NCBI RefSeq assembly: GCF_017358165.1
Contig: NZ_CP071446.1
Coordinates: forward strand, 1,488,001 to 1,552,000
Source of the DNA: Thermosipho ferrireducens
GTDB taxonomy: Bacteria; Thermotogota; Thermotogae; Thermotogales; Fervidobacteriaceae
DNA: 64,000 bases
Direction of reading: 5' to 3'
Below, piece by piece: positions 43,213 through 58,083 of the stretch. Within the stretch, counting starts at the first letter, position 1; each line of letters opens with the position of its first letter. Below the pieces are notes generated by a model, which worked only from the letters and a program-made list of their open reading frames with translations, did no database searches and was not told where the DNA came from. A program made the translations under genes and the position numbers.

Positions 43213-44511
43213 TTAAAATTTCACATTAGAACCATAACTAATCACTTGTACTAATTCATTATTTATATAATCATGTTCTATTCTATCTGTAAACAAAATC
43301 CCTTTCACTTCTAATTTTTGATTAGTAGTTCTATAGATAAACTCGCCATTTTTGTCTTTCAAAAAATAAATATACTCAAGAAGTTCCTTTAATCCTTGTA
43401 AAATATAACTTTTATCGGTTGTATATTTCACTTCACCTATAATAACTTTTTTCAACTCATATGTTCTTGTATCTCTAATTTCTATTAAAATATCTGGCCT
43501 ACCCTGCCAAACATTTTCAGATATTTCTCTATCATCAAATAATTTAGAACCTATTGTTCTAAATTGGTCAAAAATCATAACTTGTCTTTTAAAAAACTCA
43601 TCTTTTACTTTTGAATCCTCAATTTCATTTCTATATACTTTAAATACCAATTCATTTGAACCTGTGCTATTATGATATATTATGTACAAATATTCATTAT
43701 CTTCCCAGGTTGCTACTTTATTTTCTTTGACATCCATTATATACATCTTATAATCCTTCTGATAATTTTTTATTACTTTTATTACCCAATATAATTCAAA
43801 TAGAGTATTTTCATCAGCAATTTCAATAAATGTTTTTTCGAAAAGTTCTTTTAAGCGCAATTTATTTACTTTAAAACTTAAATAATCTCTATATAACTTA
43901 AATAATTTAGCGGTTTTGTTATAAATATAATTTCTATTTCTTTTCACATTTTCAAGCATTCTATTTGTGATTTTTATATTTCCTGTATCTACTTTATTCA
44001 AGTATATATTTTTTTCATAAACATCCTTTACAATCCTATTAATCTCTTTTCCATCTTTATACCACTCATATTTTTCAAATTCAACCATATTCAATTCATA
44101 ATGTATTATTGTATATAAAATTTCTATAAATTTTTTTAAAACAATATTTTCTTTTGTGTTGTATTCTTTATTTCTTTCACTGACAGAAAATAGCGTTTTG
44201 TCATTATAACCTACATTCAACCTTTCTTTAATAGTTTTTTGCCAATTAATTTTTCCTTTTATGCTTTCTCTTGAATTTTGTTCATTCATTGAGGAAGAAA
44301 CTTTTAATGTTCTAATTAAAAACGGCAAACTCTTTACATATTCTCTAACTTCATCTAAAAGGATAAAATGAAGTTTTATTAATCTCTCAAAATTCTCAAT
44401 GTTTAAATTGAGTTTTCTCAAAAAAGTATTTGGTGAAAAATGTCCATTTTTTACATATGTTATTAAATCATCACTTATTTCTTTAATAATTACCTCTTTA
44501 GGCGTTTTCAT
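43213..44511 (-). CDS. McrC-like nuclease subunit (DUF2357-type)
   Basis: A 432-residue protein with the nuclease core of McrC-type proteins: RPDILIEI followed by IIGEVKYTTDKSYI (about 337-365), the D...E-x-K of a PD-(D/E)xK site. The N-terminal 300 residues are the helical region seen in McrC-like partners (LNTFLRKL, then VKSLPFLIRTLKV). It overlaps the McrB-like gene by 14 bases, so translation is coupled. Together they would cut DNA carrying modified bases, or act as another NTP-dependent nuclease of the McrBC type. Target modification is not visible. Confidence 0.8.
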   Translation of the reverse strand: MKTPKEVIIKEISDDLITYVKNGHFSPNTFLRKLNLNIENFERLIKLHFILLDEVREYVKSLPFLIRTLKVSSSMNEQNSRESIKGKINWQKTIKERLNVGYNDKTLFSVSERNKEYNTKENIVLKKFIEILYTIIHYELNMVEFEKYEWYKDGKEINRIVKDVYEKNIYLNKVDTGNIKITNRMLENVKRNRNYIYNKTAKLFKLYRDYLSFKVNKLRLKELFEKTFIEIADENTLFELYWVIKVIKNYQKDYKMYIMDVKENKVATWEDNEYLYIIYHNSTGSNELVFKVYRNEIEDSKVKDEFFKRQVMIFDQFRTIGSKLFDDREISENVWQGRPDILIEIRDTRTYELKKVIIGEVKYTTDKSYILQGLKELLEYIYFLKDKNGEFIYRTTNQKLEVKGILFTDRIEHDYINNELVQVISYGSNVKF

Positions 44512-46870
44512 CGATAATCACACCAAAAAAGTCGTATATAAAATTTTCAAGTATTTGCCTTTTTTCTTTTTCTTTAAACTGTTCAATGGTTGAATTGTAA
44601 AGCTCTTCGATAAATTTTTTAATATTATCTTCGGAAATGCCTTCAAATTGAGGAAGTAAGTATAGTATTAAGGCTGAAACGTAGTCTCCCTCTATACTTA
44701 CATAATTTGCAATATCTTTTATTATTGCTGGACCAATTTTTCTGTATTTATTTGCTGTTCTCCAAATTTCTAATAAAGCTTCTTTTAAACTTATCTCGTT
44801 TATACTCTTATCTTCTATACTCCATTTATTTAATAATTTTTCAACTAATTCTTCACTAATAACTTTTGGAACTCCAACATAGATAAATGCAAAACGTCTC
44901 ATAAATGCATAACTTAACTCGTATAACGATGTTTTATCGTATGTATTCATTGTTCCTATAATTCTAAAATTTTTTGGAAGGATATATATATTATCTCCAT
45001 CTATTTTCTGTTCTTCATCTGATTCAGGTTTAATTATTATATTTTTACCTGAACGAGATTTTAGACTTAATTCAACTTCATCTCCAGTTAACACAGATAA
45101 AAAAGGTCCAAAGGTTTTATCAATATCAGCTCTGTTTATTTCATCAATAATTAACCAGTAAAGTTTATCATTGTTTTTGCTTTTTAACATTTTAAGAAAT
45201 ATTCCTTCTACAAATTCTAATGTACCGTCTTCTTTTGGTTTATAACCACCAATCGTATCATATGTTGACCAATCAGACATTGCAGTTACCATCTTATAAT
45301 CAACGTCGTAACTATTGCATATTTCTTTTGCGAGCTTTGATTTTCCGGTTCCTGGAGGGCCAATAAGGATGATATGTTTTCCAGATTTTAATGCTGTAGA
45401 TATTTGGGATAATAAGTTATCTTGGTTTTCAAAATACAATTGTGAAACTGTTAAATATTTATTCCAATCAATAAAATGTTCCTTTTTTTCTTTCCCCCCA
45501 TTTTCATTGGGCCCCATTTCTTTAAGCTTGTTATATTCAAAAAATTTATCTATAACTTTTTCGTATTTCCTTATAACTTTATTAAAAATAGAAAAATCAA
45601 TAACGTGTTCTTTATCTTCTTCAGATTTTAGTGATTTGTCCTTTTTTTGCAATTTAGAACCTCTCCATAATCCAAAAGCAATAAAAGTAGGATAAATAGC
45701 AATACCTAATTGAACAGCTTGTTGATGATTCTTCATATTTGAAGGATATATTGCACCCCAGCAGTGGTCAGTTCCAAAAGGTTGAGAACCATAAAAATTG
45801 ACTATATGAGTTTTTAGTCCAAAAGTTATTTTTAAGTTATTTTCTATATAATCCTTTAAAATATTTAGAAGTCTTTCAAGTATACGGTCATCCCTTTTTT
45901 TGTATTTTTCGTAGAAAAATGGGAACAGTATTTTAAAATTGTCCCATGGTAATAAAATATTTTTTTTATATTTTTTTGATATTTCACCTTTAATTTTTTC
46001 CAAAATATTTAAATCTAACTTTTCACCATTTAATAACTTTTCTGCAATTTTAAACCTAATGAGATTTACTTTTTCACTTCCAGAATACTTATCATGGAAT
46101 TTTTTTAAATAACTTTTATCAAGATTATTTACGTAGTTTATAAATTCTTCATCATTATTTTCGAACTTATCTATTGTTTTTGCTATCATCTGAAGATATT
46201 TTAAGTCAACATCAAAAGTGAAATTATAATAATCATCTGCGGAAAGACAATATATAAAGTCTTGAATATCTAAAACATCAGGATTTTCCAAATACTTTCT
46301 CTCTTCAAAATATTCCTTTAATATATAACATAATTGATAAAAATAGTAATATTTCTCGGCTTTATCACTGTATTTCTCATTAATATTAAAGAGCTCAAGA
46401 AAATTTTTGAATATTTTATCTTTAAATATCGGATACTTTTTGTAATTATAACTTGCAAGTAAATAACCTATCAACGGCGTTCCAGGAGAAAAACTTAATT
46501 TATTAACTTTAAAAATACTTTCAAAAATTTTTATTCTTTCAACTAAATTCACTGTTTCATCATACAAAACATTTAAAGCTTTCATAACAATTTCAGGATA
46601 ACTTAGTGAGATTTTATACAAACTATCAAGTTGGGCCCAATAAACAAACGAACCTTTTGAGGGGTTAGCATTCTTCAATTTTTCAATTATTTCTACTACA
46701 TTGTCAATAGTTATTCTTTTATTCTGTAAGTAATTATTCAACTCAGATAGAATTTCTTTTTTATATTGTTCATTATATTGTGGATTATCTTTAAATTTAA
46801 GATACTCATTTATTGCTATATCCAAATAGTTGTCGTCATTCCAAATCTTTTTAAACTCTTCTATTTTCAT
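44498..46870 (-). CDS. McrB-like AAA GTPase/ATPase subunit
   Basis: About 790 residues, start set at ATG 46870 with GGAGGAGTGG upstream; a TTG 24 bases earlier has none. The N-terminal 400 residues are helical and unfamiliar and probably read DNA or its modification. The AAA module has Walker A LIGPPGTGKSK (about 501-511), Walker B LIIDEINRAD (about 571-580) and GTMNTYDKT (about 637-645), which matches the McrB signature MNTxD. It assembles into a hexamer that drives the McrC-like nuclease. The operon is transcribed towards IS256 relic B, where the third gene is truncated. Confidence 0.85.
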   Translation of the reverse strand: MKIEEFKKIWNDDNYLDIAINEYLKFKDNPQYNEQYKKEILSELNNYLQNKRITIDNVVEIIEKLKNANPSKGSFVYWAQLDSLYKISLSYPEIVMKALNVLYDETVNLVERIKIFESIFKVNKLSFSPGTPLIGYLLASYNYKKYPIFKDKIFKNFLELFNINEKYSDKAEKYYYFYQLCYILKEYFEERKYLENPDVLDIQDFIYCLSADDYYNFTFDVDLKYLQMIAKTIDKFENNDEEFINYVNNLDKSYLKKFHDKYSGSEKVNLIRFKIAEKLLNGEKLDLNILEKIKGEISKKYKKNILLPWDNFKILFPFFYEKYKKRDDRILERLLNILKDYIENNLKITFGLKTHIVNFYGSQPFGTDHCWGAIYPSNMKNHQQAVQLGIAIYPTFIAFGLWRGSKLQKKDKSLKSEEDKEHVIDFSIFNKVIRKYEKVIDKFFEYNKLKEMGPNENGGKEKKEHFIDWNKYLTVSQLYFENQDNLLSQISTALKSGKHIILIGPPGTGKSKLAKEICNSYDVDYKMVTAMSDWSTYDTIGGYKPKEDGTLEFVEGIFLKMLKSKNNDKLYWLIIDEINRADIDKTFGPFLSVLTGDEVELSLKSRSGKNIIIKPESDEEQKIDGDNIYILPKNFRIIGTMNTYDKTSLYELSYAFMRRFAFIYVGVPKVISEELVEKLLNKWSIEDKSINEISLKEALLEIWRTANKYRKIGPAIIKDIANYVSIEGDYVSALILYLLPQFEGISEDNIKKFIEELYNSTIEQFKEKEKRQILENFIYDFFGVIIDENA

Positions 46871-46984
46871 GTAAAGCCACTCCTCCGTTCGCAAGATGCA
46901 AGTATCTTTTTTATGATTATATGGGCAAAAGTAATATTTCGCTGCATTCCATAGTTTTTAGGATCTTACTATTTTATTATTCTA

Positions 46985-47623: not shown

Positions 47624-47968
47624 TTATATTTCATCGTTTATCTTTTCCAACATCTTCTTTAATTCTGGGATTTGTTTGCTGATTATTGTCCATATTATTC
47701 GCAAATCGACTGCAAAGTATCCGTGAATACCTACATTTCTTAATCCCACGACTCTTTTCCATGGTATCTCAGAATATCTCTTGCGAATATTTTCAGGAAT
47801 TTTTCCCGCTGCTTCTCCTATAATTTCGAGGTTTCTCAAAACTGCGTCAACTATCATCTCCTGTTTTTCAAACTCTTCGAAATTTTTAATTCCTTTGCAG
47901 TATCTATCTATTTTATTAATGGCGTCAAGCATATCTTCAATAAATAACTTCGCATTTCTTTTAGACAT
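47624..47968 (-). CDS. hepT: HepT-like RNase toxin (HEPN)
   Basis: About 114 residues from ATG 47968, chosen because AAGGAGGACATTG lies just upstream; a longer reading runs into mntA. The HEPN catalytic motif R-x4-H-x-Y is present as RNVGIHGY (Arg77, His82, Tyr84). In the type VII HepT-MntA system the toxin cleaves RNA and is silenced when MntA adds AMP to that Tyr. The gene overlaps mntA by eight bases, downstream of it. All active residues are intact. Confidence 0.9.
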   Translation of the reverse strand: MSKRNAKLFIEDMLDAINKIDRYCKGIKNFEEFEKQEMIVDAVLRNLEIIGEAAGKIPENIRKRYSEIPWKRVVGLRNVGIHGYFAVDLRIIWTIISKQIPELKKMLEKINDEI

Positions 47969-48254
47969 ATACAATGTCCTCCTTAATTGATTCCCACAAA
48001 AGCGGTTTACTTGATACAGCATTTTTTGTTACCACATCGACTTTAACACCAAGAAGTCTTTCAAATTCTTCACACAGGTCCACAAATTCCCATCCTATGT
48101 TTTTTTCAAATTCAACAAGAATATCCACATCGCTTAATTCTTTTTCCTCTCCACGAGCAAAGGAACCGAAGACTGCAATCGATTTTATCCCGTATTTATC
48201 CTTCAATTCTTCTTTGTGTTCAGAAAGTATTTTCTTTATTTCTTCAAGTTTCAT
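47961..48254 (-). CDS. mntA: MntA-like nucleotidyltransferase antitoxin
   Basis: Ninety-seven residues, start set at ATG 48254 with AAGTGGTGATATTT upstream. The longer open frame to 48380 is a relic of another gene. The minimal nucleotidyltransferase motif GS-x10-D-x-D is exact: Gly30-Ser31 (FGSFARG) and Asp42/Asp44 (SDVDILVEF). It AMPylates the HepT toxin. It is the upstream gene of the pair. Confidence 0.9.
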   Translation of the reverse strand: MKLEEIKKILSEHKEELKDKYGIKSIAVFGSFARGEEKELSDVDILVEFEKNIGWEFVDLCEEFERLLGVKVDVVTKNAVSSKPLLWESIKEDIVYV

Positions 48255-48282
48255 AAATATCACCACTTTCTTGAAATTTTCA

Positions 48283-48345
48283 ATATAAAAAATATGCACA
48301 ATCAGTGGATTAAAGTATTTAGCAAAGCTTCTCCTATTGCCTCCA
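48283..48345 (-). pseudogene. Second fragment of the AlbA_2-type regulator
   Basis: The minus strand reads NRRSFAKYFNPLIVHIFYI, sharing the NPLIVHIFY core with the relic at 47164-47555. About 20 codons only. It lies directly upstream of mntA, so the toxin-antitoxin pair sits between two pieces of the same family. Confidence 0.6.
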
Positions 48346-48683
48346 AAGGATAATACCATATTTCTTTTCTTACAAGCCATTTAATCTCATATTTTACATA
48401 TATGAATTTTTTAATTGTTTCTTCTTAAGTTATAACCTGTTTAAGAACACTCTCTTTATAACCTTTTTCAACATAAATTTTACCATATTTTTAATTGTGA
48501 AATCCACGTAATTTAAAAAATATAAAAGTGGCATTAATAAATTAGCAATGAAAAAAATAAGAGCCCCGCATATGGCGGGACGACATTTTCTTTAAGAAAC
48601 GCAAAGAATAGTAATTTTTTAATAAGTGAAAATTTAAAGGAAAGGCTTGATTATAATTCTTTTTAAATAGGGTTTTTATCAGG
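48346..48683. other. About 340 bases without a gene
   Basis: AT-rich. It holds a weak hairpin CCCGC/GCGGG at 48565-48579, which on the minus strand is followed by a T-run (to 48550) and could end the OFA carrier gene. Nothing else seen. Confidence 0.5.
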
Positions 48684-50163: not shown

Positions 50164-51153
50164 TTATTTGCCAATAAGATGGCATGCTACATAATGTTCA
50201 TTTCCAAGGTCTTTTAACTCGGGATGATGTTGAGTTTTACAGATTTTTTCTTTAAGCGGGCATCTTTCATAGAACCTGCATATTGGAGGTGGATTTATAG
50301 GTTTACTTACACTACCAACAATGTCAGGTTCACCTTTTTGGTACTCAGGGTCTGGAACAGGGACTGCTGTTAATAATGCTTTTGTGTAAGGATGCATAGG
50401 ATTTGAAAGTAATTCTTCAGTATTAGCGTATTCGACGATCTTTCCAAGGTACATAACAGCTATTTTATCACACATGTATCTTGCTACAGCAAAATCGTGT
50501 GTTATGTATAAATAGCTCATACCGTGCTTTTCCTGGAGTTCCATCATCAGGTTCATAACCCCTGTTCTAACAGAAACATCGAGCATGGAGGTAGGTTCGT
50601 CTGCAACAATGAATGTTGGATCCAAAACCAATGCTCTTGCTATAGCAACTCTTTGTCTTTGACCACCAGATAATTCATGAGGATACCTCCACATGAAACT
50701 TGATGGTGGTGTCAATCCAACTTCTTGAAGAAGGTTCTTGACTTTTTCTTCTCTTTCCTGCAAGTTGCCTATATTATGTATGTTAAGAGGTTCTGAAATG
50801 ATGTCAAATATAGTCATTCTTGGATTTAGAGATTCATATGGATCCTGAAAGATCATTTGAACCTTTCTGTGATATTCCAGTTTTGATGTATATTCGTGTA
50901 TTTCCTTACCGTCTATGAAAATTTCTCCTTCTGTTGGAGCTTCTAAACCAACAATCACTTTACCTGTTGTTGTTTTTCCACAGCCTGATTCTCCAACCAA
51001 TCCCAGGGATTTTCCCCTGATTATTTCAAAACTTACATCATCAACCGCGTGTACAAAATGCTTTACTTTCATAAACAATCCTCTGTCGGCAGCGAAAAAC
51101 TTTTTCAAACTTTTAACTTTTAAAATAATATCATTTGAGCTGTGCTTTTGCAT
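50164..51153 (-). CDS. oppF: Oligopeptide/oligosaccharide ABC transporter ATPase, OppF/DppF type
   Basis: A 329-residue ATPase. Walker A GESGCGKTT (about 55-63), signature LSGGQRQR, Walker B FIVADEPTSMLD, and the C-terminal Cys-rich stretch ICRFYERCPLKEKIC (four Cys, a likely Fe-S or zinc site typical of OppD/F). It powers the permease pair OppB/OppC together with OppD. AAGAGGTGAGAGAAA is its ribosome site. It overlaps the OppD end by 23 bases and is the last gene of the operon, followed by a strong hairpin. Confidence 0.92.
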   Translation of the reverse strand: MQKHSSNDIILKVKSLKKFFAADRGLFMKVKHFVHAVDDVSFEIIRGKSLGLVGESGCGKTTTGKVIVGLEAPTEGEIFIDGKEIHEYTSKLEYHRKVQMIFQDPYESLNPRMTIFDIISEPLNIHNIGNLQEREEKVKNLLQEVGLTPPSSFMWRYPHELSGGQRQRVAIARALVLDPTFIVADEPTSMLDVSVRTGVMNLMMELQEKHGMSYLYITHDFAVARYMCDKIAVMYLGKIVEYANTEELLSNPMHPYTKALLTAVPVPDPEYQKGEPDIVGSVSKPINPPPICRFYERCPLKEKICKTQHHPELKDLGNEHYVACHLIGK

Positions 51154-52138
51154 TTTCTCTCACCTCTTCCGTTAGTGGATGCCAGCATGCTATATAATGC
51201 CCATTTTCAATTAATTTGTATTCGGGTTCTTCTTCTCTACATTTGTCTGTTGCCCATGGGCATCTGGGAGCAAATCTACAACCCTTTGGTGGCTCTAATA
51301 GATTTGGTGGCTCACCGGGAATTGTAAACAATTCTTTCTTTTCACCAACAATACTTGGAAACGCGTTCATTAGAAGGTATGTATATGGATGCATTGGATT
51401 TTTGAATATTGTTACAGAATCTGCCAGTTCTACAAATTTTCCGGCATACATCACAGCTATTTTGTCACTTACCTCTGCAATAACAGCTATATCGTGGGAA
51501 ATATAAATCATAGCCATATTGAGTTTCTTCTGAATTTTTTTCATTTCTTTCAAGATTTTATCCTGGACAATAACGTCAAGGGCAGTAGTTGGTTCATCGG
51601 CTATAATAACTTTTGGATCACATGATAAAGCAAGAGCTATAACAGCTCGTTGTTTCATACCACCACTGTATTGATGAGGATATTGCTCCATCCTTTTTGG
51701 ATCAAGCCCTACCAGTTCAAACAGTTTTGCTACTTTCTTTTTCGCATCATCTATGTTCATATCGGGATAATGTGTTAGAATCGCCTCAACTATTTGATCT
51801 CCAACTTTGTAAACAGGATTTAATGAATTCATCGCAGCCTGGAAAATCATTGCAAGACCTTTCCATCTGTATTTTCGCATTTCATTTTCTGGAAGTGTAA
51901 CTAAATCTACAGGACCGTTTCCTTCGTCAAAAAGAACGCTTCCTCCTTTAAATTCTCCGTTTTCTGGTAACAGTCTCAGCATAGTCATTGAAACAGACGT
52001 TTTCCCACAACCTGATTCTCCAACAATTCCCAGGCTTTCTCCACTATCAAGAGTAAAATTTATACCATCGACAGCTTTAACATATCCCATTTTGGTTTTA
52101 TAATGCATTTTTAAATTTCGAACATCTAATACTGGCAC
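51131..52138 (-). CDS. oppD: Oligopeptide/oligosaccharide ABC transporter ATPase, OppD/DppD type
   Basis: About 335 residues, start set at GTG 52138 after AGAGGTGATT; an earlier GTG at 52147 is inside that site. Walker A GESGCGKTS, signature YSGGMKQR, Walker B IIADEPTTALD, and the family Cys cluster CRFAPRCPWATDKC near residues 290-303. OppD pairs with OppF as the second nucleotide-binding subunit. The start is six bases beyond the OppC stop and the end overlaps OppF, so the order B-C-D-F is translationally linked. No unusual changes in the ATP site. Confidence 0.92.
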   Translation of the reverse strand: MPVLDVRNLKMHYKTKMGYVKAVDGINFTLDSGESLGIVGESGCGKTSVSMTMLRLLPENGEFKGGSVLFDEGNGPVDLVTLPENEMRKYRWKGLAMIFQAAMNSLNPVYKVGDQIVEAILTHYPDMNIDDAKKKVAKLFELVGLDPKRMEQYPHQYSGGMKQRAVIALALSCDPKVIIADEPTTALDVIVQDKILKEMKKIQKKLNMAMIYISHDIAVIAEVSDKIAVMYAGKFVELADSVTIFKNPMHPYTYLLMNAFPSIVGEKKELFTIPGEPPNLLEPPKGCRFAPRCPWATDKCREEEPEYKLIENGHYIACWHPLTEEVRENAKAQLK

Positions 52139-52143
52139 ACAAA

Positions 52144-54675
52144 TCACCTCTTTCTTAATCTTGGGTTGACAATTTCTTCAAGTCCTCTTCCAAGGAAATA
52201 AAATCCTGAACAGAAAATTGTTATTATCAAACCAGCTGGAACCCATAACCACCAATACGCCCCTATATTACCAGAAGATAAGTATCCAGAAGTCCAGGCG
52301 GTGTTGATCATGATACCCCAGCTTATTCTAATTCTGAGAAGTCCAAAGAAGCTTAAAACAGCTTCTGAAAACACTGCGGCAGTAACATTAAACATCATAT
52401 ACAGGAAAGATAAAGGCATTACATTGGGGATTATGTGATTAAAGATGATGTATGCATTGTTTCCGCCAGCTACTCTTGCAGCTTCAATATATGGTTTTAC
52501 TTTTACTGTTAACGCCTGAGCTTTAATAACCAATGTAATACCACCGAACCCTCCAAGAAGACCAAGAATAAGCGCAAGCCAGAACAAATTAATCTGGAAA
52601 AACCCAGAGAGAACTATCAAGAAAGCAATACCCGGGAATAATAAGATCAAATCAGCAAGTCTCATGAATAAGGTATCAACAGCTCCTCCAAAGTATGCGG
52701 CAGTTGTACCAACTATAGTTCCAATCACAACGGTTATTAAAGCTGCCAGAAAACCAAGCATAAATTCACTTGGGGTACTCCTTAAAAGCTGCATGAATAT
52801 GTCTCTTCCACCAGGATCAGTTCCAAGTAAATGCCATCTATTAGGTGGAAGTGGATGTTGAATTCCAAGTTTTGAGTTAAGTGCAAGATTATTGTAAAGA
52901 TTTACAACTGATTCTTTAGCTTCTTTCTGGCTAATTTCAAACGTTGAATTTAGTTGTTTTACAACATCTCCAAGATCATTCTGGTTATAGGCTATGTAAT
53001 CTTTGAATTCATCTGTCCAGAATTCTTTGTTTTTTAGATACTTTATGTGATCTTTCACAAGATTAGCAAAAAGATATCTGGATATAGGTGTTTTAATATC
53101 TGAGTCAGGTAGAAGTAATTTTACTGAATTAATGGGTTTTGAAAGTTCTTTCATCTTCTTTACTATATCTAATCTTTTATAATTTATATCACCTGCATTT
53201 TCTATATTTGAAATTATCAGGTTATAGTGTTTTGTATTTTTTGTCGCAAAGGAAAGTAAAGATACTACAGGTTTGTCCATGGCAGGTATTAGCTGAGTAA
53301 AATCAATATTCAAATAAACATCAGGTATTTTGATATTTTCAGGGGATTCTTCAGTAATGTCAGAGATTATGCTTGCCATAAAAGCTCTGGCGTTTGCCAC
53401 TTCTATAAACAATGCTTCAAGCTCTTTTCTAAATCCATACTGTATGTCCGGATAGTTTGAAAGTGCTGTTTCAACTTTTGCCCTAAATTCAGGTGAAAAA
53501 TCAAATGTTAAAATCGCTAATTTTATCCCGGAAAGTACGTCAAGAAGTTTAACAGGTTCGCTGTAATTGGCTTTTATGTCTAATTGTGAAAATAACGTCT
53601 CTATTTCTTCAAGGTATTGTTTAACCCTTTCATAATTAGATTTTTTACTTTCTTCGTTGGAAAGATCAGGCATTCTTATTTCTGCGTAATTTAACAATTC
53701 TGAATATTGTGAATTTTTTAAAGCTGCTATCAAAGAATCATAATCTCCAGAAATTTTAGAATAGGTTAAAATATCAACAAGAACATTGAATATTGTTGCT
53801 TTTGCTAAATCCTGTACAGGAACCTTTTCGGTTTTTATTATTTCCTCAAGATCCTTTTGATTGGCCACGGAAATTTGAACATTTATTAAGCTCTTTCTTA
53901 CTAAATTTGAAACAACGCTAAAAATCTTTTCTTGTGCCTCTTTGATTTCTTTTTCTGAAAAGTCCTTTCTTAATAGGTTTTTGAATTTTTTCTGTTCTTC
54001 AGAACCTTTTGCTATTTTCAACCATAAGGTTATTCGTGAAACTTCTCGTTTAGATTTGTAAGGTGCAAGAGCCATTGCTAATGTCTCTGTATCTACCTCT
54101 TTGACTAACTTTTTAAAATCACTTAGTGAGAATTTTTTTCTATTGCCAATTTCCAAAATGTTTGCTAAGGGTTTAACTTCAATTAAACCCTGATCAAGGA
54201 GCTGGGAGATTTGATTCTGGTATCTCATTCTTTCTTTCATTGGAATGTAATTATCTACAATGGCATCTAAAATAGGTCTAAATGCCTGTGCATAATCTAA
54301 GTTCACAAATATTTTTTGAGCAACGTCTATTCGTTTTTCTATTGCCTTTTTGAAATCTTCTCCCTGGTCTAAAAAAGAGTAAGTGAACAATGTAGCCGCC
54401 GGGATTTCAATACCTTTTATAACATTTAATGGAGACATGTATTTAGAGACGTACGATATATCCTGAACTCGTGGATCAGTGCCTGTAACAGGATCATAAA
54501 TGCTTTTATCTACAAATTGCCACACTATTGGATATGATAGGGCAAATAGTCCAAATGCGATAATTATAATTAGTCCGAAAAGTCCCAATTTGTGTTCTTT
54601 AAACAGTTCCCAGTTTCTTTTTGTATTTTTCAAAAATAATTTCAGTTTTATTTTGGTGATTGATTCTTTAGCCAT
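52144..54675 (-). CDS. oppC: Oligopeptide/oligosaccharide ABC permease, OppC/DppC type, with a very large extracytoplasmic insertion
   Basis: An 843-residue membrane protein, against about 280-300 for ordinary OppC. Residues 30-53 are the first membrane segment. Residues about 75-600 are a mostly helical hydrophilic insertion (many Lys, Glu, Asp, Leu; few Cys or Trp). The usual permease continues from about 612 with GTDPGGRDIFMQLLRS and five further segments, including the EAA-like loop YIEAARVAGGNNAYIIFNHIIP. By topology the insertion lies outside the membrane. It is a continuous frame with no stop. The start at 54675 follows AAGGGGTGAAATTG. It could dock the binding protein or the cell envelope. 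A similar, smaller insertion is in the MalG-type permease at 7924-9204. Confidence 0.9.
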   Translation of the reverse strand: MAKESITKIKLKLFLKNTKRNWELFKEHKLGLFGLIIIIAFGLFALSYPIVWQFVDKSIYDPVTGTDPRVQDISYVSKYMSPLNVIKGIEIPAATLFTYSFLDQGEDFKKAIEKRIDVAQKIFVNLDYAQAFRPILDAIVDNYIPMKERMRYQNQISQLLDQGLIEVKPLANILEIGNRKKFSLSDFKKLVKEVDTETLAMALAPYKSKREVSRITLWLKIAKGSEEQKKFKNLLRKDFSEKEIKEAQEKIFSVVSNLVRKSLINVQISVANQKDLEEIIKTEKVPVQDLAKATIFNVLVDILTYSKISGDYDSLIAALKNSQYSELLNYAEIRMPDLSNEESKKSNYERVKQYLEEIETLFSQLDIKANYSEPVKLLDVLSGIKLAILTFDFSPEFRAKVETALSNYPDIQYGFRKELEALFIEVANARAFMASIISDITEESPENIKIPDVYLNIDFTQLIPAMDKPVVSLLSFATKNTKHYNLIISNIENAGDINYKRLDIVKKMKELSKPINSVKLLLPDSDIKTPISRYLFANLVKDHIKYLKNKEFWTDEFKDYIAYNQNDLGDVVKQLNSTFEISQKEAKESVVNLYNNLALNSKLGIQHPLPPNRWHLLGTDPGGRDIFMQLLRSTPSEFMLGFLAALITVVIGTIVGTTAAYFGGAVDTLFMRLADLILLFPGIAFLIVLSGFFQINLFWLALILGLLGGFGGITLVIKAQALTVKVKPYIEAARVAGGNNAYIIFNHIIPNVMPLSFLYMMFNVTAAVFSEAVLSFFGLLRIRISWGIMINTAWTSGYLSSGNIGAYWWLWVPAGLIITIFCSGFYFLGRGLEEIVNPRLRKR

Positions 54676-54689
54676 TCAATTTCACCCCT

Positions 54690-56129
54690 TCAGTATCTAA
54701 TCCTTGGATCTAATATTGCATATAAAATGTCAGCAATAAGGTGCGCAAAAAGGACAAAAACACCTGTAAAAATTAAGCACCCCATGGCAAGCGGGGTATC
54801 TTGAAGAAGTGTTGCGTTCAAAAGAGTTAATCCCATCCCTTTCCATGAAAACATTGTTTCAGTAATTACTCCCCCACTAACAGTTGTGGCAAGAGCTAAA
54901 ACAAAACTTGTAATTAATGGTAAGAGCGCGGTTCTTGCAGCGTGTTTGTCTCTTACAACTTTGTCGGGAAGTCCCTTAGCTTTTGCTGTTGTTATATAAT
55001 CTTCTTTGATAATTTCCAGCATTGTATCTCTCATAACCAGCATACTACCGGCAAATCCAAGAACGGTCAACGATATAACAGGAAGAATAACGTGGTAAAT
55101 AATATCAAGGGCATAATATCCATAACCATTTGTCAGCCAGTATATTAATACGCTGCCTATTCCTCCAAACGTGAATGTCAACATCGCAGCATTCTTAGTT
55201 TTTTTGGTTTTCATAAATGATGCAAAAAGTATGCCAACGCTCCAGAACATCACAAGTACTATTGAACTCCATAATAGCTTTATAAATACATCTTGAGAGG
55301 AGAATGTAACATTCAACCATTTAGAGGGTTCTATAAATCCACTAATTGGGAATATTTTTAAGACCACCCCAAAAAGCCAGATCATAATAAGCATGAAAAA
55401 GGGAGTGAAAATCGTCCAGAATATTATTCCCACAAACGTGGCAACTTTATCGGACACCCCACCTCTTTTCCATGCGATTTTTTTCCCAAGATTATATCCT
55501 AAAAGATAAGAAGATAATGTAGTCATTAAAAATAAAAATACAGTTCTTGGAAGTCTTTCTCCAATAATCTCTGCAACAGGTTTGGGATATTCTGAAAAAG
55601 ATATACCAAGTTCCAAATTGAAGAAATTTTTCATGTGTTTTGCATACTTTACATACCACGGGTCGTCAACACCAAAAAGTTTTTTAATTCTTTCGTACAT
55701 TTCAGGTTGTTTCATCAGTTTTGGATCTAAAAACTTTGTTGTGTAATCTCCAGGCATTAAAAGGAAGATGAAAAATACTATTGTGACGTATATCACAAGT
55801 AAAATTATCATTTGATATAACCTATTTCGTATGAATTTAAACAATCCAGGAAGTGGTAATGAAAACAAATACAAAATGAAAAACAGGATATAGTTAAAAC
55901 GTGGGCTAAAAACAAAGAAATATTTAAAGTTAAAAATAGCAGACAAATACAAAGCAAGAGAGATTACTAAAAACACATAGTGATAAAACTTTTCAGCATT
56001 AAATAACGTAATTAGAACGGCAAGTAGTGGTAAAAGTATTGCAAATCCAAAAAACGAGAGACTTTCAAAAAACAATGATATAACAAAAAATATTCCTACT
56101 ATTAGCTGAATCAATAGTTTTATATTCAT
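54690..56129 (-). CDS. oppB: Oligopeptide/oligosaccharide ABC permease, OppB/DppB type, with extended N terminus
   Basis: About 479 residues, start preferred at ATG 56129, since GGAGAGGTG covers the alternative GTG at 56135. The C-terminal 370 residues are a normal OppB: DDPWYVKYAKHMKNFFNLELGISF, then EIIGERLPRT, the loop EDYITTAKAKGLPDKVVRDKHAARTALLP and VITETMFSWKGMG. The first 105 residues add about four membrane segments absent from ordinary OppB, which has about 310 residues. It forms the channel with OppC. The upstream binding-protein gene is separated by a hairpin. Confidence 0.9.
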   Translation of the reverse strand: MNIKLLIQLIVGIFFVISLFFESLSFFGFAILLPLLAVLITLFNAEKFYHYVFLVISLALYLSAIFNFKYFFVFSPRFNYILFFILYLFSLPLPGLFKFIRNRLYQMIILLVIYVTIVFFIFLLMPGDYTTKFLDPKLMKQPEMYERIKKLFGVDDPWYVKYAKHMKNFFNLELGISFSEYPKPVAEIIGERLPRTVFLFLMTTLSSYLLGYNLGKKIAWKRGGVSDKVATFVGIIFWTIFTPFFMLIMIWLFGVVLKIFPISGFIEPSKWLNVTFSSQDVFIKLLWSSIVLVMFWSVGILFASFMKTKKTKNAAMLTFTFGGIGSVLIYWLTNGYGYYALDIIYHVILPVISLTVLGFAGSMLVMRDTMLEIIKEDYITTAKAKGLPDKVVRDKHAARTALLPLITSFVLALATTVSGGVITETMFSWKGMGLTLLNATLLQDTPLAMGCLIFTGVFVLFAHLIADILYAILDPRIRY

Positions 56130-56160
56130 TTTCACCTCTCCTTTTTATTGAAAAATTAAA

Positions 56161-56196: not shown

Positions 56197-58020
56197 TTAT
56201 TTAACTCTTACCACATTTTCCGGGAAACCATTGTAATTTTGAATACCATCAAGTGTGTCTGTGAATGGGAACTCAATTGTATCCCTGTACGCTTCATAAA
56301 TTGGAGTTGTAAAGAGGATAATATATGGAAGGTCTTCTGCGAGTAATTCCTGTGCTTCTTTTATAGCTTCTACCGCTTCATCAAAGGAATCGGCCATTTC
56401 AAATTCATCAATAAGAGCGTCAAATTCTGGATTGGAGTAACCTGGAGTGTTGAAACCTTCAGGTGCGGATTGATCTGATTTCCAGAAACTCTTGAAGTAC
56501 GTTGGGACTCTTCCAATACCCCAGCCAAGCATGTACATATCAAAATCAACTTCGTCAAATGCTCTGGTAACAATTTCGTTGAAGTCTGTAAGTTTAACAT
56601 CAATAGGAAGGCCGAGATCTTTTGCCCATTGTTCTATATAAATAGCAGTTGTAGCTCTCATTGGGTCGTATTCTCCAGACGGAGCGAGAAGTTCAAGGTC
56701 AGGAACGTATTTACCATCTGGTCCCTTTAAGCCTTTTCCACGTTTGACAACCGGGTTAGCTGCTTTTGAAGGATCAATTACTGGTTCCTGATCCCAGCTA
56801 AATCCTGCTTTTTTCAGAAGTTCAATAGCAAGCTGATATCTTTCTCCTCTGCTCAGTCCTTCACCAATTGTTTTGACATCTGCGTTGTACCAGAAAGTGT
56901 TTGCAGGTGGAACTGGCGTGGAAAGTGGTATAGCTTTTCCCTGAAGAACTCTGTTACAAATGTAATCCCTATCGATTAATGCAGCTAATGCCTGTCTGAA
57001 TTCTTTTATGTTGAACGGATATTTTCTCATATTGAAAGCAAGATATCTAAATCCAAGAGATGGATTTACTGTAAGTTTGATTCCTGGAACTCCTTTTAAC
57101 GACTCAAATTCACCTGAGGTCAATCCTAAAGGATTCAATACAAAATCAACATCTCCTTTTTGAAGAGCCTGCAGTGCAACAGCTTTGTTTCCATATATTC
57201 TGTAAATTATCTTGTCTATATATGGTCCATTTACAACTTTCAATTTTACGGAACCTTCTGGTGCAGGATTATTGCTTGTCCATTCAAAACCGGTGGTAGG
57301 ATTCTTAATTACAAATCCGCCGTTTTCATAATAAAGATTTTCTTCACCCTCTGGCAAATAGAAACCTTTTTCCACTACTCTTTTAACTTCTACAAATGCA
57401 CCTTTTTCTATTTTTCCAAGATTCAATGCTGTAATAGCGGGATCTACTACTTCCTGGCTCAACAACCAGTTTACTGGATTTTCCTGCTTTTTAGCTTTTT
57501 CTACATAAGGAGCCCAGAAGTTTTTGCTTACAATGGCAGTCATGAGAGTGTCATAGTAAATTGTCATTGTGGTTTTTTCCTTGAAATAGAATTTCACAGT
57601 CCATTCATCTATTTTCTCTACTTTTGTTGGTTCATATGCGCCTACCCAGTTTCCACCAGGGATTTGCAATTCTTGAATAGTATTGTATGTAAATACAACA
57701 TCGTTTGCAGTAAACGGAGAACCATCACTCCATCTCAAATCTTTTCTCAATTTCACTGTTACCGTGTACATTCCATTTTCTTCTACAATTTTGGGAACTT
57801 CTGCAGCTGCTGATGGAATAAGCATACCGTCTTTATTCATGGTTAACAATGCTGGATACTTCCACAGCTGAACATAAAAGTTCCAGGCAGATGAACCAGA
57901 TCCCAACAGGTTCCAGATGTTTGTGGTGGTAATATCCTCTAAAAGAGCGTAGTTTACAACAGCTTCACCAAATATGAATAATGTTAACAACAACCCAACA
58001 AAGACAAGTAAACGTTTCAT
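56197..58020 (-). CDS. Extracellular solute-binding protein, family 5 (Opp/Dpp type)
   Basis: About 607 residues from ATG 58020, chosen because GGAGGGGTCGC lies just upstream and a signal peptide follows (MKRLLVFVGLLLTLFIFGEA). Family-5 marks: LRKDLRWSDGSPFTANDVVFTYNTI (about 100-125), FRQALAALIDRDYI, and DPMRATTAIYIEQWAKDLGLPIDVKLTDFNEI. It binds a peptide or, as often in Thermotogota, an oligosaccharide outside the membrane. No lipobox Cys. It is the first gene of the operon under the promoter at 58084-58112. The substrate cannot be settled by sequence. Confidence 0.92.
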   Translation of the reverse strand: MKRLLVFVGLLLTLFIFGEAVVNYALLEDITTTNIWNLLGSGSSAWNFYVQLWKYPALLTMNKDGMLIPSAAAEVPKIVEENGMYTVTVKLRKDLRWSDGSPFTANDVVFTYNTIQELQIPGGNWVGAYEPTKVEKIDEWTVKFYFKEKTTMTIYYDTLMTAIVSKNFWAPYVEKAKKQENPVNWLLSQEVVDPAITALNLGKIEKGAFVEVKRVVEKGFYLPEGEENLYYENGGFVIKNPTTGFEWTSNNPAPEGSVKLKVVNGPYIDKIIYRIYGNKAVALQALQKGDVDFVLNPLGLTSGEFESLKGVPGIKLTVNPSLGFRYLAFNMRKYPFNIKEFRQALAALIDRDYICNRVLQGKAIPLSTPVPPANTFWYNADVKTIGEGLSRGERYQLAIELLKKAGFSWDQEPVIDPSKAANPVVKRGKGLKGPDGKYVPDLELLAPSGEYDPMRATTAIYIEQWAKDLGLPIDVKLTDFNEIVTRAFDEVDFDMYMLGWGIGRVPTYFKSFWKSDQSAPEGFNTPGYSNPEFDALIDEFEMADSFDEAVEAIKEAQELLAEDLPYIILFTTPIYEAYRDTIEFPFTDTLDGIQNYNGFPENVVRVK

Positions 58021-58083
58021 AAAGCGACCCCTCCTTTTCAAAAGTGTAAATCAAAATAACTTTGTGTTAAAAAACACGAAATT

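Follow-up and report, generated by a model that had tools for sequence, protein, structure and literature searches.

A predicted extracytoplasmic insert of 539 residues, with a likely FliG-like fold, in the permease OppC of an Opp/Dpp-type importer from Thermotogota

Introduction

In Opp/Dpp importers, short loops are commonly considered sufficient for docking of the binding protein. Solved OppC and DppC chains have 273-289 modelled residues and no ectodomain, whereas the OppC described here has 539 residues added in the loop between TM1 and TM2, and its partner OppB has four added helices. What is this insert, how did it arise and what does it do for the importer? The gene lies in a window of 64,000 nucleotides, by which we mean the whole stretch of DNA that was analysed. 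In this study, we describe three features that go beyond an earlier note on this DNA: a probable FliG-like domain within the insert, orthologues without the insert, and a second, unrelated insert in another lineage.

Results

The oppC reading frame (52144..54675) runs on the minus strand from 54675 to 52144 and encodes 843 aa without a stop; the plus strand across the same interval has many stops. The host genome is one contig of 1,982,543 bases. Open reading frames and Pfam matches placed the gene in an oppABCDF operon, all on the minus strand, with oppA (56197..58041; a family-5 binding protein with a signal peptide and, by eye, no lipobox), oppB (54690..56135; 481 aa) and the ATPase genes oppD (51131..52147) and oppF (50164..51153). 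Pfam OppC_N matched OppC residues 20-54 (25.0 bits against a cut-off of 23.9) and BPD_transp_1 matched residues 652-842 (67.7 bits against 26.4), and the approximately 550 residues between them had no confident Pfam match. The NCBIfam Opp4C equivalog gave 173.4 bits, under the required 350. The order A-B-C-D-F and the pairing of OppC_N with BPD_transp_1 are shared with known OppC/DppC systems, and the core fold is alike in E. coli DppBCDF (8z1v-8z1x) and OppBCDF (8z21) and in M. tuberculosis OppABCD (8j5q-t): the OppC core model matched 13 OppC/DppC entries with Z 21-25 over about 270 residues. The transporter thus belongs to a familiar kind, the type I ABC importers of the Opp/Dpp type, and what is new in it is the ectodomain.

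The boundaries of the insert were determined by alignment with insert-less orthologues, in which the loop reads ...YDPVxGxD....HPxPPSxxHLLGTDPxGRD. In this OppC, YDPVTGTD is followed by 539 residues (68-606; 52858..54474, minus strand) and then by HPLPPNRWHLLGTDPGGRD, so that the insert lies between YDPVTGTD and HPLPPxRWH/GTDP. Hydropathy showed a single TM at residues 30-48 (TM1, 54532..54588, within the OppC_N match), with the next TM only at 638. The permease core after the insert (residues 607-843; 52147..52857), defined by Pfam, hydropathy and identity, holds TM2-TM6 and an EAA-type loop (about 732-755), which is cytoplasmic in this family. Counting the TMs back from this loop places the insert outside the cytoplasm, in the predicted extracytoplasmic TM1-TM2 loop; a cytoplasmic insert was ruled out by this predicted topology. 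The N-terminus is rich in K and R (9 K+R versus 3 D+E). The earlier note had read the region as an extracytoplasmic insertion of about 500 residues after the first membrane segment, and both the alignment and the predicted topology agree with it. Self-comparison of the insert by hhalign gave no internal repeats (below 1%).

The distribution of the insert was examined in 103 Thermotogota genomes. A single-sequence search found it in 18, all in the families coded f1 and f11, and a profile search returned the same 18 together with one chance-level row (G029) and a weak second match (G067, E 0.014). The frame was open in all 18 carriers, uninterrupted in 17 and divided between two contigs in the other (G102). 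The orthologous OppC core, defined by E at most 1e-60, was present in 47 of the 103 genomes. Of these, 18 have this insert, 6 belong to family f3, and the remaining 23 have short frames (296-369 aa). Within its clade the insert was kept by all 18 genomes that have the orthologue, at a length of 514-608 residues, so that the survey proposed earlier found it conserved; in the 17 sequences that were aligned, it occupies an identical position within the loop. Thermotogota of other families have the orthologous operon without the insert, and the close insert-less orthologues are 60-70% identical in the core and retain the same loop. In Bipolaricaulota, the orthologous core was found in 21 of 100 genomes; the 22 rows concerned all had an open frame, between 318 and 445 aa long. 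The insert itself was found in 0 of these 100 genomes and in 0 of 398 genomes of the phylum of a Limnochordaceae MAG (G104), empty results that show little without a positive control. No insert was found in the viral contigs searched. Among the matches listed, OppC outside this orthologue group never exceeded 565 aa.

The core and the insert evolve at different rates. In 16 relatives, the core (607-843) was 78-92% identical to this OppC, and identity was 34-57% at residues 171-267, 24-44% at residues 436-600, and 22-57% over most segments of the insert. In 17 aligned sequences, 162 of 237 core positions were invariant, compared with 10 of 97 at residues 171-267 and 11 of 43 at residues 68-110 (54346..54474), the membrane-proximal stretch that is the most conserved of the insert. 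In unsaturated close pairs, dN/dS was about 0.04-0.13 for the insert and 0.01-0.08 for the core; one very close pair gave 0.265, on almost no substitutions. The insert is thus fast-evolving yet under purifying selection. Since the frame is open in 18 genomes and dN/dS is low, it is neither a chance frame nor an assembly artefact, and a frameshift or pseudogene was ruled out by the same data together with the conservation. The earlier note had argued from the lack of a stop or frameshift that the insertion is functional sequence, and these data bear it out.

Two other OppC proteins carry extra residues in this loop. A paralogue in the same genome (L001 1429-3051; G000:C1 at about 1306326) has 541 aa and about 240 extra residues of a different sequence, and Pfam finds OppC_N and BPD_transp_1 alone in it. 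An OppC of Bacillota (L061 5107-6777) has about 250 residues there, acidic and, by eye, strand-like. As the Bacillota insert lies in this loop too, the stretch between TM1 and TM2 appears to be a place where insertions recur.

The fold of the insert was predicted with AlphaFold2, using the whole OppC (20 alignment rows, mean pLDDT 71) and the insert alone (5 alignment rows, mean pLDDT 64). Both runs gave an all-helical insert, as the earlier note had proposed. The confident part of that agreement is restricted to residues of about 131-426, mostly at pLDDT 79-95 (about 133-426 correspond to 53398..54279); residues 436-606 were mostly below 50, and this C-terminal stretch (435-606; 52858..53373), predicted as helical at low confidence, is also the fastest evolving. 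When the insert model was compared with known structures by VIA-align, eight FliG entries (3usw, 3usy, 4fhr, 1lkv, 1qc7, 3ajc, 3hjl and 8ucs) filled the first eight ranks with Z 10.4-11.9, at 1.9-2.2 A over 85-88 residues and 20-26% identity. The next match had Z 7.0, a gap of 3.4 Z units. With the whole OppC model, FliG entries stood among the permease matches at Z 11.2-12.9, 1lkv at 3.3 A over 114 residues; across both models, all other FliG matches lay at 1.7-2.2 A over 85-89. Foldseek with the insert model gave nothing at E 0.001 or better. Residues 268-435 could be assigned to no family, although the VIA-align comparison barely covers this stretch.

Sequence comparisons pointed to the same family below the usual thresholds. 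FliG_C was matched by five of nine insert members (best E 0.0037, sub-threshold) and was the sole Pfam family that matched more than two of them; the insert of this OppC scored 15.3 bits, under the cut-off of 23.3. In a six-frame search of the 103 genomes, FliG_C matched the insert in at least 10 of the 18 carriers with E 0.002-0.06, about the level of FliG's own middle domain. A FliG_C profile built from Thermotogota alone gave marginal scores of 3.7-7.4 bits in 10 of 17 insert rows, against controls of up to 6.7 bits for shuffled and 5.0 bits for reversed rows. By hhalign, the insert matched FliG with a probability of 22.6, compared with 0.8 for the reversed control. The sequence register paired insert residue 189 with FliG 251 and 260 with 319, and the structural ranges paired 171-267 with FliG 236-326; the two coincide at the end of the segment and differ by no more than about three residues where it begins. 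Neither FliG_N, FliG_M nor MgtE_N was among the 16 Pfam families matched at E up to 1 by the nine members, a search in which HMMER filters may drop weak ones. By eye, the stretch SKRAAxLLKDELEYMGPVR, which presumably holds the charged torque residues of FliG, did not appear to be retained in the hhalign and FliG_C-profile alignments of the insert.

The resemblance to FliG could reflect a generic helical arrangement without homology, which would make the insert a new all-helical fold. The marginal controls and sub-threshold scores fit this reading, as does the caution that helical bundles can reach VIA-align Z values under about 13 by chance. However, the first eight entries belong to one family and are followed by the gap in Z, the two registers agree at residue 260, and five of nine members match FliG_C independently. 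We therefore regard the generic explanation as rather unlikely. These results suggest that residues 171-267 (53875..54165) likely adopt a fold like that of the FliG C-terminal domain (T. maritima 1qc7 and 1lkv; H. pylori 3usw) and are probably homologous to it. This segment differs from FliG in its predicted place on the other side of the membrane, in being embedded in a transporter, and in scoring under the Pfam cut-off.

A second type of insert was found in family f3. Five genomes with complete OppC frames (954-977 aa) have 642-649 residues inserted in the same loop; the frame of the sixth (G098) is interrupted by a contig end. This insert precedes a YDPVTGND motif, whereas the FliG-type insert follows YDPVTGTD, and it appears helical by composition and look alone. 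No homology between the two types was detected, with an hhalign probability of at most 2.0, zero hmmsearch matches and a best blastp E of 0.012. The second type gave no FliG signal. In the genomes searched, both giant inserts occur only in Thermotogota.

We investigated the relationship between the two types with trees. In a tree of the OppC core, constructed without L032 (motif not found), L022, L023, L035 and L002, the FliG-type rows formed one clade (99) and the second-type rows another (95), sister (97) to insert-less rows of the Pseudothermotoga type. With OppC alone, a clade uniting the two insert types could not be rejected (p-AU 0.067). In a tree of OppB, OppC, OppD and OppF from 45 complete loci, built without L004-L024, L044, L048, L051 and rows lacking any of the four genes, a single insert clade was rejected (p-AU 2.8e-8); the second type grouped with insert-less f2 rows with support of 100, and the FliG-type rows formed their own clade (100). 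The simplest reading is two gains of an insert from an insert-less ancestor; the counts alone are compatible with gain or loss. That a second lineage built a different outer domain in the same loop suggests a real job there.

The other subunits were compared across the three states. OppB of this operon has about 97 extra N-terminal residues (1-97; 55845..56135) with four predicted TMs, in accordance with the roughly four extra N-terminal segments described in the earlier note. All ten FliG-type rows (nine distinct genomes, since L026 and L101 are the same genome) had 75-113 extra N-terminal residues, in which a crude threshold recognised 1-4 TMs. An OppB extension bearing a TM was found in 0 of 32 insert-less rows, so that it accompanied only the FliG-type insert. 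The second-type rows had no N-terminal extension (0 of 5); about 131 residues are inserted internally instead, giving 12 TMs in total versus 6-9 in insert-less rows. This comparison used OppB frames that do not run into the end of a contig or locus. Both lineages have therefore enlarged the outer loop of OppC as well as the membrane part of OppB, each in its own way. In four OppB proteins of Bipolaricaulota (L049, L050, L053 and L056), about 50 additional residues are distributed among three blocks of the core; their OppC partners have frames of 350-353 aa.

OppA was predicted to be soluble and secreted in the insert-less, FliG-type and second-type lineages alike, with similar length and no lipobox by eye; a script flagged a lipobox in L027 alone, at a place that precedes the likely start. 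Loss of a lipid anchor on OppA was considered as a driver and rejected on these grounds: as OppA is soluble and alike in all three states, the insert is not a substitute for a lost anchor. OppD in Thermotogales rows was 78-89% identical to that of this genome in all three states, so the ATPases changed far less. Among the flanking genes (10 proteins, 10 of 11 loci), nothing shared indicated the substrate.

Discussion

The permease MalF of the maltose importer, which is also of type I, has a large extracytoplasmic domain, P2, inserted on the side of the binding protein. P2 is far smaller than the insert of OppC and occupies another loop with another fold, and we claim no kinship between them. 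According to a report on E. coli DppABCDF (PMC12136057), DppA caps DppB and DppC, the periplasmic TM1-TM2 regions of DppB and DppC differ, and a scoop motif of DppB begins after TM1 and enters the cleft of DppA. As the insert lies in the corresponding loop of DppB's partner subunit, the most economical reading is that it may serve to dock or capture OppA or to form a seal with it. In the mechanism that we propose, the ancestor of a single clade of Thermotogota would have gained a longer TM1-TM2 loop in OppC, giving a putative helical ectodomain of 514-608 residues with a FliG C-terminal-like module. This ectodomain would be located beside the binding protein and would hold or capture OppA, which is soluble and secreted here, so that the local concentration of OppA may rise at the mouth of the translocation path. 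The added OppB helices would brace the ectodomain in the membrane, and the whole would work like MalF P2. We hold this explanation as a whole tentatively, at a little short of an even chance.

Units of the FliG/MgtE-type armadillo-like (ARM) fold stack on each other; both the C-ring and the periplasmic E-ring show this. Because this stacking is between proteins and is known in the periplasm, the main rival is that the ectodomain is a scaffold for oligomerisation, which would bring several transporters together or connect them with a different protein of the envelope. Besides the predicted FliG-like fold itself, this agrees with two reports (PMC13023049, PMC11870540), in which FlgY, FlbB and MotE form rings and give a precedent for periplasmic ARM units like those of FliG and MgtE. 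These relatives are stand-alone secreted coiled-coil proteins with an ARM of the MgtE_N type, unlike the OppC insert, and neither the middle domain of FliG nor an interface for stacking was found in the insert. We consider the scaffold an unlikely alternative, though one to be taken seriously. A FlgY/MotE-like protein was also found in Thermotoga: L137 1183-2124 (G095, inferred to be Thermotoga) and L138 have 309-314 aa with an N-terminal membrane segment and a coiled coil. L137 matches MgtE_N and FliG_C in Pfam and by eye adjoins a FliK-like gene, and the two are possibly E-ring proteins.

Thermotogota possess an outer sheath, the toga. The ectodomain may serve to tether the importer to peptidoglycan or to this sheath, or act as a spacer, and so position it in a wide periplasm; the confinement of both giant inserts to Thermotogota in the genomes searched would fit. 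However, the Pfam matches of the insert include no envelope-binding domain, and Thermotogota of other families manage the orthologous operon without it, which makes the tether improbable. That a tolerant loop simply expanded by neutral or nearly neutral change, with no specific partner, has a poor chance: a large share of the insert varies freely at low identity beside a conserved core, and the same type of loop takes other inserts (L001, 541 aa; L061), but the low dN/dS, the retention in all 18 genomes and the coupled changes of OppB argue against it.

A broader reading is that a module of the FliG fold, outside the membrane, would serve as the working arm of an ABC importer, with an unrelated giant arm built independently in a sister lineage and new OppB helices each time. 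We consider this somewhat less likely than not. If it is true, Thermotogota would have a class of type I importers with giant ectodomains, in which it is the permease that organises the delivery of substrate, a task left neither to the binding protein nor to a lipid anchor.

In the literature covered by titles and the openings of abstracts, mostly outside subscription papers, no FliG-like or comparably large OppC insert was reported. Specialists would not expect a FliG-like fold on that side of the membrane in a permease, nor a second independent insertion. A single orthologous operon in three states, with a bare loop, a FliG-like ectodomain or another ectodomain, provides a natural experiment on the value of the ectodomain. 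A FliG-type fold outside the cytoplasm in a transporter would also bear on the spread of the FliG/MgtE/FlgY fold.

Two further loci were noted by eye on the minus strand of the window. At 47624-48380, two small genes resemble a toxin-antitoxin pair of HEPN and nucleotidyltransferase (MNT) type. At 43213-46894, an AAA protein of 798 aa, together with the 432-aa protein next to it, resembles a restriction system of the McrBC type.
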